64,000 nt of DNA from Daejeonella sp. H1SJ63. GTDB lineage: Bacteria > Bacteroidota > Bacteroidia > Sphingobacteriales > Sphingobacteriaceae. Within the stretch, counting starts at the first letter, position 1. The number at the start of each line of letters is the position of its first letter. Both the position numbers and the translations under genes were made by a program. The notes under the pieces were generated by a model. It searched no databases and was not told the DNA's origin. It saw only the letters and a program-made list of their open reading frames with translations. Below, one piece after another: positions 35,541-38,792 of the stretch. The DNA lies in contig NZ_JARKMZ010000035.1 of the NCBI RefSeq assembly GCF_029360775.1, forward strand, positions 1-64,000. The letters run 5' to 3'.

Positions 35541-38500
35541 ATGGACTATCAATTCAGGGATATAGAGCAGAGGTGGCAGAAATTTTGGGCAGATAATCAG
35601 ACGTTTAAAGTAGAGAACAATTCTGAAAAGCCTAAATATTATGTTTTGGATATGTTTCCTTACCCTTCAGGGGCAGGCTTGCATGTCGGTCATCCGCTCG
35701 GATATATAGCTTCCGATATTTTTTCACGTTACAAGCGTCTCAAAGGATTTAATGTGCTGCACCCAATGGGATACGATTCATTTGGATTGCCGGCAGAACA
35801 ATATGCAATTCAAACCGGTCAGCATCCGGCAATTACTACCGAGGCCAATATCAATCGCTACCGCGAGCAACTGGATAATTTAGGTTTTTCGTTTGACTGG
35901 AGTCGTGAAGTACGTACCAGTGATCCATCCTATTATAAGTGGACTCAGTGGATATTCATGATGCTTTTCAATTCTTGGTATAACCTTGAAAGTGACAAAG
36001 CTGAGAGTATTGAGGTACTGGTGAAAAAGTTTGAAAGCAATGGCTCGGAAGGAATTAAGGCTGTAAGTGATGATGATGTGGCCGTTTTTACAGCCGATGA
36101 GTGGAAGAATAAATCAGATGCAGAGAAGCAGAACGAATTGCTGAAATACCGTCTGACTTATCTGCGTGAGAGTACTGTGAACTGGTGCCCGGCCCTGGGA
36201 ACTGTTCTGGCCAATGATGAAGTGAAGGACGGATATTCAGAGCGTGGCGGACATCCGGTAGAGCAGAAGAAAATGATGCAGTGGAGTATGCGAATTACAG
36301 CCTATGCTGATCGGATGCTTCAGGGATTAGACTCGATCGACTGGCCCGAGCCTTTGAAAGAAATGCAAAGAAACTGGATCGGTAAAAGTGTTGGGGCTTT
36401 GGTTAAATTTAGCCTCACCCCCACACCCTCTCCGAAGGAGAGGGGAGAACCGGGCGGAGAACAACCGGGTTATATGACGGCTGATCCTGCTATTTGGGAT
36501 ATTCTGAAAGAGCACTCAAGGCAGCATCGCAAAGATTCAACTCAGGCCGAAGATATCCTGTGGCAGCATCTCAGAAATAGTAAAACCGGTTATAAGATCA
36601 GGCGTCAGCATGCTATTGGGACATATATAGCAGACTTTATCTGTTTAAAAAAAGGCCTGATAATTGAAGTGGATGGGGGCTATCATACCGAAATTAAAGA
36701 TCAGGATGAATTAAGATCCGAAGCCTTGAATAATCTCGGTTTTGAAGTAATCCGATTTTCTAATGAACAAGTTGTTTCTGATCCAACAGGAGTTAGCGGA
36801 AAAATTAAAGAAAAGTTAAATACACTACCTGACCGGATTTTAGGCGATTCAGACTCCCTCTCTCTTGGAGAGGGGCGGGGTGAGGCTTATATAGAAGTTT
36901 TTACCACTCGTGTTGATACCATTTATGGTACAACTTTCCTTGTTCTTGCCCCGGAGCATGAACTGGTTGAAGGTTTAACTACTCCTGATCGCAAAGAGGA
37001 AATTCAGAATTATATCGATCAGACCAGGAAAAAGTCGGAGCTCGACAGAATGGCTGATACAAAAACAGTTTCAGGAGCCTTTACCGGAAGTTATGCCAAA
37101 CATCCGATAAGCGGGGAGCCTGTACCTGTATGGATTGCAGATTATGTACTGGCAGGATATGGAACGGGTGCGGTTATGGCTGTTCCATCGGGAGATCAGC
37201 GCGACTGGCTTTTTGCAACTAAATTCGGCTTGCCAATCGTAGCTATTTCAGATGCTCAGGTTAATCTTGACCAGGAAGCTGATCCAACTAAAGAAGGTAA
37301 ATACATTAATTCAGGCATTGTAAACGGACTTACGTATAAAGAAGCTACCGGGGTGCTGATTGCAAAACTCGAGGAGCTCGGCGCCGGTAAAGCGAAAGTG
37401 AATTATCGTTTGCGGGATGCTATTTTTGGTCGTCAGAGATATTGGGGTGAACCGGTTCCGGTTTATTTCAAAGACGGACTTCCTTATCTGATTTCAATAG
37501 AAGACCTTCCATTGCTTTTACCCGAAGTAGATAAATATCTGCCTACAGAAAGTGGTGAACCGCCTTTGGGAAGAGCAGAAAACTGGAAATACAAGGGCGA
37601 ACTGGAGTATGAGCTAAGCACCATGCCCGGATGGGCAGGTTCAAGCTGGTACTGGTACCGTTATATGGCTTCTCCTGAAGACAGGAAGCAGGATGTTTTT
37701 GCTCCGGCAGATGCTATTGCCTACTGGAAAGATGTGGATCTGTATATTGGTGGGTCAGAGCATGCTACAGGACATTTGCTGTATAGTCGTTTCTGGAATA
37801 AGTTCCTGAAGGATCTTGGATATGTGGTGGAAGAAGAGCCATTTAAGAAGTTGATCAATCAGGGGATGATTCAGGGAAGGTCGAATTTTGTTTACAGAAT
37901 TATCGATGAAAGCGGACGCGGAACCAATAAGTTCGTTTCCCATGGACTGAAGTCTCAGTATACTACCTCTGCAATCCATGTGGATGTGAATATTGTGTAT
38001 AATGAGATTCTGGATCTTGAGAAGTTCAAAGCTTTCAGGCCTGAGTTTGCTGAGGCTGAATTTATCCTTGAAGGAGGTAAATACATTTGCGGTGTTGAGG
38101 TTGAGAAGATGTCGAAATCTAAATTCAATGTTGTAAACCCGGATGACCTCATCGAACGTTACGGAGCAGATACCCTAAGAATGTACGAGATGTTCCTTGG
38201 TCCGCTGGAGCAAAGCAAACCATGGAATACCAATGGAATTGAAGGTGTATTCAAATTCCTTCGTAAGTTCTGGAAACTTTTCCACGATGATGAGTTTAAC
38301 TTCAGGGTGTCAGATGAAGAGCCTTCAAAAGCAGAATACAAAGCATTACACAAGATTATCCGTAAAGTTGAAGAAGATATTGAACGTTTTTCATTCAATA
38401 CTTCGGTATCAAGTTTCATGATCTGTGTAAATGAACTGACTGACCTGAAATGTAATAAGAAACAAATACTGGAACAGCTTGTGCAGGTTCTTGCCCCATA

Positions 38501-38792
38501 CGCTCCGCATATTACAGAAGAGCTCTGGACATTACTCGGAAATCCTGCAGGTTCATTATCAGCATCTTCTTATCCGAAATTTAATCCTGAATACCTTGTA
38601 GAGAATGAATTCTCCTATCCGGTTTCAGTGAATGGAAAGACCAGAATGAATCTTAGTATTTCGCTAACACTGACTCAGCCGGAAGTAGAAGAGATTGTTC
38701 TGGCTAATGAAGATCTAAGAAAATATCTTGAGGGTAAGAGTCCGAAAAAGATCATTTTCGTTAAGGGTAAAATAATCAATGTGGTAATTTAA
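35541..38792 (+). CDS. leuS: Leucyl-tRNA synthetase with an in-frame DUF559 domain insertion
   Basis: It charges tRNA-Leu. The HIGH-type motif is PYPSGAGLHVGHPLGY near residue 38 and the KMSKS loop is EKMSKSKFNVVNPDD; the tail is an anticodon-binding domain. It has 1083 residues, whereas bacterial LeuS is usually near 900-930. The excess is residues 291-449, which form a DUF559 endonuclease-like domain coded by an element with inverted-repeat ends. Normal LeuS sequence runs up to GKSVGALVKF and resumes at YIEVFTTRVDTIYG, at the beginning of the CP1 editing domain. Both catalytic motifs and editing-domain motifs are intact, so the enzyme is probably functional with the extra domain. No intein splice motifs are present. 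Confidence 0.95.
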   Translation: MDYQFRDIEQRWQKFWADNQTFKVENNSEKPKYYVLDMFPYPSGAGLHVGHPLGYIASDIFSRYKRLKGFNVLHPMGYDSFGLPAEQYAIQTGQHPAITTEANINRYREQLDNLGFSFDWSREVRTSDPSYYKWTQWIFMMLFNSWYNLESDKAESIEVLVKKFESNGSEGIKAVSDDDVAVFTADEWKNKSDAEKQNELLKYRLTYLRESTVNWCPALGTVLANDEVKDGYSERGGHPVEQKKMMQWSMRITAYADRMLQGLDSIDWPEPLKEMQRNWIGKSVGALVKFSLTPTPSPKERGEPGGEQPGYMTADPAIWDILKEHSRQHRKDSTQAEDILWQHLRNSKTGYKIRRQHAIGTYIADFICLKKGLIIEVDGGYHTEIKDQDELRSEALNNLGFEVIRFSNEQVVSDPTGVSGKIKEKLNTLPDRILGDSDSLSLGEGRGEAYIEVFTTRVDTIYGTTFLVLAPEHELVEGLTTPDRKEEIQNYIDQTRKKSELDRMADTKTVSGAFTGSYAKHPISGEPVPVWIADYVLAGYGTGAVMAVPSGDQRDWLFATKFGLPIVAISDAQVNLDQEADPTKEGKYINSGIVNGLTYKEATGVLIAKLEELGAGKAKVNYRLRDAIFGRQRYWGEPVPVYFKDGLPYLISIEDLPLLLPEVDKYLPTESGEPPLGRAENWKYKGELEYELSTMPGWAGSSWYWYRYMASPEDRKQDVFAPADAIAYWKDVDLYIGGSEHATGHLLYSRFWNKFLKDLGYVVEEEPFKKLINQGMIQGRSNFVYRIIDESGRGTNKFVSHGLKSQYTTSAIHVDVNIVYNEILDLEKFKAFRPEFAEAEFILEGGKYICGVEVEKMSKSKFNVVNPDDLIERYGADTLRMYEMFLGPLEQSKPWNTNGIEGVFKFLRKFWKLFHDDEFNFRVSDEEPSKAEYKALHKIIRKVEEDIERFSFNTSVSSFMICVNELTDLKCNKKQILEQLVQVLAPYAPHITEELWTLLGNPAGSLSASSYPKFNPEYLVENEFSYPVSVNGKTRMNLSISLTLTQPEVEEIVLANEDLRKYLEGKSPKKIIFVKGKIINVVI
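36411..36448 (+). repeat. Left terminal inverted repeat with nested hairpin
   Basis: AGCCTCACCCC is followed by the perfect hairpin CCCTCTCC-GAA-GGAGAGGG (36426-36444). Translated in the leuS frame it gives SLTPTPSPKERGE. It mirrors the right end. Confidence 0.8.
36851..36887 (-). repeat. Right terminal inverted repeat with nested hairpin
   Basis: The hairpin CCCTCTC...GGAGAGGGG (36856-36875) is followed by GGGGTGAGGCT. Reverse-complemented, it aligns with the left end over about 37 bases with a few mismatches and small gaps. Confidence 0.8.

Follow-up and report, generated by a model that had tools for sequence, protein, structure and literature searches.

The 64,000-nucleotide window of Daejeonella sp. 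H1SJ63 analysed in this study carries a leuS gene in which a DUF559 nuclease domain is predicted to be translated as part of leucyl-tRNA synthetase (LeuS) (Table 1). A preliminary description of this DNA, made from the letters and their open reading frames, had proposed that the domain lies in frame within a LeuS of 1083 aa, that its active site is complete, that the host sequence is continuous around it at the start of the CP1 domain, that the 477 nt are a multiple of three and open throughout, repeat ends included, and that no intein blocks are visible. These proposals were all borne out. The insert corresponds to LeuS residues 291-449, its 159 codons are free of stops, and it was matched by the DUF559 family of Pfam (PF04480) with an E value of 9.5e-32 and 109.6 bits against a curated cut-off of 20.6; the lack of a DUF559 profile match, which would have refuted the proposal, did not occur. 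E47, D75, E86 and D88 of the active site are present. LeuS domains flank the insert on both sides, the match to the editing domain (PF13603) beginning at residue 448 and profile position 20 of 185. In an alignment with the solved Thermus thermophilus enzyme 1h3n, the insert falls where the editing domain starts, with chain residues 235 and 240 on either side of it. The HVGH and KMSKS motifs and the editing motif GTGAVMAVP are all retained in the fused LeuS. The genome, rated 100% complete, has a single LeuS match at E≤1e-60 and a single DUF559-like copy at E≤0.001, and the cell therefore seems to depend on the fused enzyme.

Table 1 Features of leuS and its in-frame element (positions in the window)
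Feature	Position	Strand	Remarks
leuS (leucyl-tRNA synthetase)	35541..38792	+	1083 aa (codons) including the insert; TIGR00396 leuS_bact, 910 bits against a cut-off of 548.4
In-frame element in leuS	36411..36887	+	477 nt, 159 codons, no stop; empty and remnant alleles at the same point in sister genomes
Left end of element	36411..36445	+	Outer arm AGCCTCACCCC (36411-36421), hairpin CCCTCTCCGAAGGAGAGGG (36426-36444); translated SLTPTPSPKERG
DUF559 (Vsr-like) nuclease domain	36507..36818	+	LeuS residues 323-426; Pfam, fold model, structure matches
Span of active-site residues E47, Q66, D75, E86, D88 (insert numbering)	36549..36674	+	Invariant in a 29-row alignment
Right end of element	36853..36887	+	Hairpin CCCTCTCTCTTGGAGAGGG (36856-36874), outer arm GGGGTGAGGCT (36877-36887); translated SLSLGEGRGEA
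LeuS editing (CP1) domain after the insert	36882..37370	+	Residues 448-610; PF13603 profile positions 20-184 of 185

The fold of the insert was modelled from 22 sequences (pLDDT 71.7), giving a mixed helix-strand domain with low-confidence ends. The best structure match to the model was 3hrl, a DUF559 protein of Neisseria (Z 15.8, 42% identity), followed by 3r3p, whose molecule name is that of the mobile-intron nuclease I-Bth0305I (Z 13.1, rmsd 2.3 over 94 residues), by Vsr (1cw0, Z 10.7) and then by mitoribosomal proteins at about Z 10. Foldseek recovered 3hrl (E 4e-7) and 3r3p (E 2e-3), and the same two entries were matched by sequence with E values of 2e-32 and 8.4e-5, respectively. The domain, which we take to belong to the PD-(D/E)XK superfamily, scored 64.4 bits against the NCBIfam equivalog NF007294, below its cut-off of 218. 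Only DUF559 and the overlapping MTES_1575 family were found in the insert by Pfam, with no extra DNA-binding region; an unknown module is not excluded. Structure prediction of the whole fusion, a check proposed in the preliminary description, did yield an AlphaFold model (14 sequences), with a mean pLDDT of 54.5 that was too poor to use.

Several other identities were considered and set aside. An intein was rejected, as no intein model was present among the Pfam or NCBIfam matches and the insert runs from Ser to Glu-Ala before a Tyr. Inteins end in His-Asn, followed by Cys, Ser or Thr. A mobile intron was rejected on the absence of any Rfam match up to E 1 in 36200-37100 and on the open host frame of the insert. 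An assembly or frameshift artefact is unlikely, since the same arrangement occurs in named isolates; LeuS copies were found in Pedobacter cryotolerans, P. fastidiosus, P. frigidisoli and P. borealis. Phage origin was not supported, with matches in 3 of 50,697 phage records, none covering more than 80% of the query. Among viral contigs, 100 stretches encode a relative, of which 80 were kept; the best is 52% identical and the others at most 46%. Nor was plasmid carriage supported (39 of 72,556 records matched, none reaching 60% identity and 11 of them spanning at least 80% of the query), and the best PADLOC profile, at E 0.011, gave no support for a defence gene. The gene is not a Y1 (HUH) transposase gene of the REP/RAYT kind, the encoded domain being DUF559 instead.

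The same point in LeuS was compared among 20 genomes of the genus. Five of them carry the full element (477 nt in G000, G104 and G114, 480 nt in G124 and 504 nt in G139), and three carry in-frame palindromic remnants that consist of the joined ends (60 nt in G092, 81 nt in G056 and 33 nt in G129). The 51 nt in G077 are a doubtful case that may be an older remnant, the 69 nt in G153 belong to a different repeat, and the remaining ten genomes have plain linkers of 3-21 nt. Insertion-free alleles, sought in close relatives as the preliminary description had advised, were thus found, the nuclease being absent from the site in 15 of the 20 genomes; a domain shared by all LeuS of the Sphingobacteriaceae, named there as a refuting outcome, did not emerge, and an old fixed domain was rejected on this patchy presence. 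No target-site duplication was seen, but the empty linkers are too variable for the exact site before insertion, or any duplication at it, to be fixed.

A second insertion site lies about 230 host residues downstream of the first (site 1) and shows the same spectrum, from full element to stub; both sites are occupied in P. frigidisoli. In a sample of 71 genomes, DUF559 was present in LeuS in at least five, at site 1 in G000, G009 and G065 and at site 2 in G013 and G035, as read from the match pattern together with other scans. A LeuS tree was built from 94 proteins, of which 31 carry the nuclease, 10 a remnant and 53 neither, after exclusion of the insert columns. Occupancy of the site required 14 changes on it, or 12 when only well-supported branches were counted. 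Remnants were recognised on this tree by short peptide motifs, so that old stubs were scored as none. The 94 LeuS proteins, like the 136 insert rows described below, were partly picked for their inserts, and their proportions are therefore not frequencies; only the 20-genome scan and the 71-genome set were unselected in this respect.

Some site 1 linkers without nuclease resemble other types of repeat (L114/L125 of G153, L271, L274, L279 and L047), and the loop may be a general landing place for repeats. One such linker repeat type was found as two exact copies, in one of seven genomes. At site 2, L134 (G021:C96) has a 141-residue stretch without a DUF559-like match, either a decayed element or an insert of another kind.

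DUF559 was matched in 184 of 399 genomes of the family at E≤1e-5 and in 165 of 395 genomes of the phylum at E≤1e-10. Among the 150 best-scoring phylum matches, counted by eye, 52 lay in ORFs of at least 250 aa and 98 were of stand-alone size (120-219 aa), and residence inside genes is therefore only one way of life of the family. In Bacteroidota, related elements are, as judged from open frames and domain matches, translated within about eighteen further kinds of gene, of which several are core genes. Pfam scans of chosen proteins placed DUF559 within LeuS, IcmF-type methylmalonyl-CoA mutase, Lhr helicase, MetH and a type ISP enzyme; within RecG, a UvrD-type helicase, HsdR, an Eco57I-type methylase and HsdM; within TsaD, CinA, an IleS-type class I synthetase and a second UvrD-type helicase; within TruB, near its C-terminal end; before the peptidase domain of an M23 protein; and in end fusions with HisF, HemF, HemD and RNase HI. 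A further copy, its host identified by eye, lies in a MetH-like protein of Aquimarina sp. RZ0. HisF-like proteins with an N-terminal DUF559 joined via palindromic sequence were recognised by eye in eight genomes of the family (L128-L133, L141 and L142; Pfam was run on L128 only). The HsdR protein L231 (G654:C27) contains both a GIY-YIG and a DUF559 domain (residues 251-316 and 443-547), which suggests a second nuclease family inserted in frame. Stand-alone DUF559 ORFs also occur in tandem, three at L136 (G265:C23), where they are surrounded by CCCTCTC palindromes, and two at L138 (G391:C1).

The ends of the LeuS element are inverted copies of each other, 36411-36430 and 36868-36887 agreeing at 80% over 20 nt, with the outer 11 nt (AGCCTCACCCC and GGGGTGAGGCT) exact. 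A hairpin of the form CCCTCTC..GGAGAGGG lies inside each end. The left-end RNA hairpin was predicted at -15.1 kcal/mol (z -2.33), with 4 of 200 shuffles equally good. The right end folded alone was no better than shuffles (z -0.97), and in the predicted RNA fold of 36380-36920 it pairs with the left end (z -3.67, none of 100 shuffles equal).

Pairing between the flanks of other copies was scored as the best inverted match between flanks of up to 160 nt per side; the shuffles preserved base composition only, and two plasmid DUF559 genes were among the rows. Among 128 distinct copies in ORFs of at least 250 aa, 106 paired better than every one of 20 shuffles, and pairing also exceeded shuffles in 8 of 10 copies in shorter ORFs. 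Mean pairing over 123 copies was 18.2 for a copy's own ends, 15.1 for ends swapped within a host site and 9.7 for ends swapped across sites (p 2e-4 and 5e-29, the relatedness of copies being uncorrected). Since own ends outpair swapped ones, both ends evidently change together, despite large sequence differences between sites (CCTCACCCC..CCCTCTCC in LeuS site 1, CCCCACCC..CCCTCCCC in TruB and GCCCCCTCTAAATCTCCCC in one LeuS site 2 group). TruB, IcmF and LeuS site 2 showed strong pairing (means 29.8, 22.5 and 22.4), and MetH, HisF and HsdR weak pairing (10.8, 11.6 and 10.1, against about 7.4 in shuffles). The left hairpin was found in all three codon phases (31, 24 and 21 copies; the pattern missed 53), and the right hairpin mostly in one (60, 17 and 7 copies; 45 undetected by the pattern). 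As hairpins occur in several phases, translation of the ends is possible in more than one reading frame.

Pairwise comparison of G000, G104, G114 and G124 (six pairs) gave an omega of 0.11-0.20 for the insert and, where dS could be estimated, of 0.025-0.037 for LeuS; the insert is hence constrained, though less than LeuS. E47, Q66, E86 and D88 were present in 136 of 136 copies, D75 in 135 and the second His (H92) in 133. Together with the low omega, an active site retained in 135 of 136 copies makes plain decay unlikely. That copies with a dead active site are almost missing points either to rapid loss or deletion of inactive copies or to some gain for the host, and the data do not separate these two.

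A tree of the inserts was built by a quick method (136 rows, 123 columns) and has many weak forks. The rows derive from 138 distinct inserts, the three L136 copies standing under one row name; seven are stand-alone and five lack a host call, and host names beyond the Pfam-scanned proteins were assigned by eye from flanking sequence. Copies clustered by host site: host labels changed 33 times on the tree, compared with a mean of 96.1 after shuffling. By the well-supported branches, the LeuS site 1 copies must have arisen at least twice, one group of them standing beside IcmF copies, and the TruB copies joined five LeuS site 2 copies with support of 96. On this tree, the elements reside stably at a host site and jump rarely between sites.

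Divergence of the insert was compared with that of its host gene, the sums being added by hand. Between G000 and G104, third codon positions were identical at 78 of 107 in the nuclease core and at 465 of 920 in LeuS (p 9e-6), with 44-50% identity in six neighbouring genes. The identity expected from composition was similar for the core (0.28) and LeuS (0.27; G104). Fourfold sites, a weak test, gave 19/32 in the core against 121/331 in LeuS for this pair (p 0.014), 18/31 against 111/329 for G000 and G114 (p 0.010) and 23/32 against 180/348 for G104 and G114 (p 0.040). The direction was opposite between G114 and G124, with 21/29 in the core against 96/105 in the 5' part of LeuS (p 0.011). The lower divergence of the insert in three pairs would fit a later spread between some lineages, with one pair contrary. 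No co-conversion was visible beside the insert, the 30 codons on each side being as diverged as the remaining LeuS. In L100 and L115 (of G114 and G124) the 5' parts of leuS are near-identical and diverge from about the insert onward; this break is likely a recombination boundary adjoining the element.

Palindromes of the same kind also occur without the nuclease. In 10 chosen genomes, 108 exact palindromes were found (2-29 per genome, with no control matches); 22 of 30 inspected lay outside any ORF of at least 150 aa. No DUF559 was present within 1.5 kb on either side in 27 of 30 inspected outside the genus or in 22 of 27 within it, and palindromes without nuclease were found in frame in genes for a MiaB-like protein, AspS, a P-type ATPase and an Eco57I-type methylase. 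This abundance of lone palindromes, mostly intergenic and at times in frame, is what would be expected if REP- or MITE-like palindromes were moved by another enzyme and the DUF559 gene were mere cargo caught between two of them. Cargo would not be expected to keep its active site and its low omega as the inserts have done, and in most examined copies throughout the phylum the paired ends go with the nuclease, including ends that have diverged in step; we regard such passive carriage as unlikely.

The conserved active site might instead reflect a domesticated domain that serves the host under ordinary selection, with DNA repair, phage defence and the tuning of LeuS as conceivable tasks, and in the accessible part of one report the stand-alone DUF559 protein VsrA of Caulobacter is needed for the DNA-damage response in a methylase mutant (PMC12907096). 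Such a role is hard to reconcile with the patchy occurrence among close relatives, with unrelated host proteins that share no common task, with stubs in place of the nuclease and with the poor best PADLOC profile, and we consider it quite improbable. That the element is removed before use, by ribosomes hopping over it on paired mRNA ends or by splicing or trimming of the protein, draws on the pairing of the ends in the predicted 541-nt RNA, which beat all 100 shuffles. The open frame and an omega well below 1 imply that translation is needed, and ribosome hopping was set aside on this ground; with neither an intein model nor an Rfam intron, and with ends that lack the closing His-Asn and following Cys, Ser or Thr of inteins, we give removal very little credence in any form.

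The explanation that we favour, as probable though not established, is that a mobile element with palindromic ends, which is coded through, carries a homing-type nuclease and lives in protein genes without splicing, has a copy resident in leuS. Read-through insertion, stubs at the same point and an occasional change of host gene are shown by the comparison of sequences. Movement between host sites follows from the insert tree, within the limits of that tree, and the nuclease as its driver is an inference; likewise, that the nuclease cuts DNA and empty alleles, with the palindromes as substrate, is inferred from family, conservation and anatomy. The preliminary description had called the insert a selfish nuclease gene surviving inside an essential enzyme, and this is supported by the patchiness, the unrelated hosts and the moves on the tree, while nuclease activity and selfish spread remain inferred only.

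Under this favoured explanation, the nuclease, translated as part of LeuS, would be able to cut DNA; it would cut empty alleles, which recombination would repair from the occupied copy, and the element would spread in the fashion of homing. In rarer moves to a new gene, the palindromic ends might be recognised or folded. Insertion into a loop would leave the host enzyme working because the whole element, ends included, is free of stops, and essential genes would become safe places. As the stubs suggest, deletions that leave the joined ends behind may be the main way in which copies are lost. Some observations count against parts of this scheme. The absence of co-conversion near the insert is not what long-patch repair would predict, unless the event is old; a simple homing cycle predicts more copies with a mutated active site than the one found; the fourfold test is weak (and contrary for G114 and G124); the MetH, HisF and HsdR ends pair barely above shuffles; and DNA-binding modules like those of known EDxHD homing enzymes were not found by Pfam. 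With a single copy in the genome, recent movement in this lineage is not demonstrated. We put forward only tentatively, as a possibility, the wider proposal of a new self-spreading class, in which a nuclease gene whose DNA, palindromic ends included, is shaped for in-frame translation colonises core genes unspliced, is copied by its nuclease into empty alleles and, through recognition of the paired ends by that enzyme, also has the nuclease-free palindromes of the same genomes moved.

Several known systems share part of this anatomy, Rickettsia palindromic elements and EDxHD homing endonucleases being the nearest in kind. Inteins with homing endonucleases likewise hold a nuclease in frame in an essential protein at a conserved place; the LeuS insert differs in having no splicing domain, and the host protein retains it as far as can be judged from sequence. 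REPs are regarded as non-autonomous offspring of RAYTs, which are single-tyrosine enzymes of another fold. The present palindromes resemble REP/RAYT systems and MITEs in being short, mostly intergenic repeats tied to one nuclease gene family, the enzyme here being of the DUF559/Vsr type, and terminal inverted repeats are shared with DNA transposons and MITEs. Rickettsia palindromic elements (RPEs), as described in the accessible part of one source, are small palindromic DNAs of about 150 bp that encode a short conserved peptide, lie in frame in unrelated genes and are translated with the host (PMC10969869). In-frame palindromic insertion into unrelated protein genes is common to both, but the present element is 477 nt long, has a nuclease domain that RPEs lack and occurs in Bacteroidota. 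I-Bth0305I, an EDxHD homing endonuclease, has a catalytic domain related to that of the insert by sequence and fold. It carries long extra DNA-binding regions, according to the portion of its description available (PMC3943268), whereas here neither an intron nor an intein is present and no comparable region was found in the insert. A cyanobacterial DUF559 gene has also been assigned to EDxHD, in a source accessible in part (PMC9403480). The stand-alone DUF559 proteins 3hrl of Neisseria and VsrA of Caulobacter share the fold or family of the insert and, unlike it, are free genes that form no part of another protein.

No description of in-frame DUF559 elements was found in the open literature (titles and the starts of abstracts); subscription papers were mostly outside this scope, and an earlier description is possible. 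The usual view is that mobile DNA in an essential gene must either be spliced out, as introns and inteins are, or be short, as RPEs are, and our findings point to a little-described type that is translated within host proteins rather than removed by splicing. By read-through, a nuclease-bearing element would persist in genes of translation and metabolism across a phylum, which would explain palindromic inserts in Bacteroidota proteins and offers a natural assay for the loops of core enzymes that accept a domain of more than 100 residues. DUF559, still a domain of unknown function by name, gains a testable role in mobility, and in annotation an internal DUF559 in a host protein may mark an element and not a new architecture. 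If the wider, tentative proposal of a new self-spreading class is true, the palindromic repeats of Bacteroidota would be the element's non-autonomous offspring, as REPs are to RAYTs, and many unexplained short loops in the core enzymes of bacteria would be its scars.
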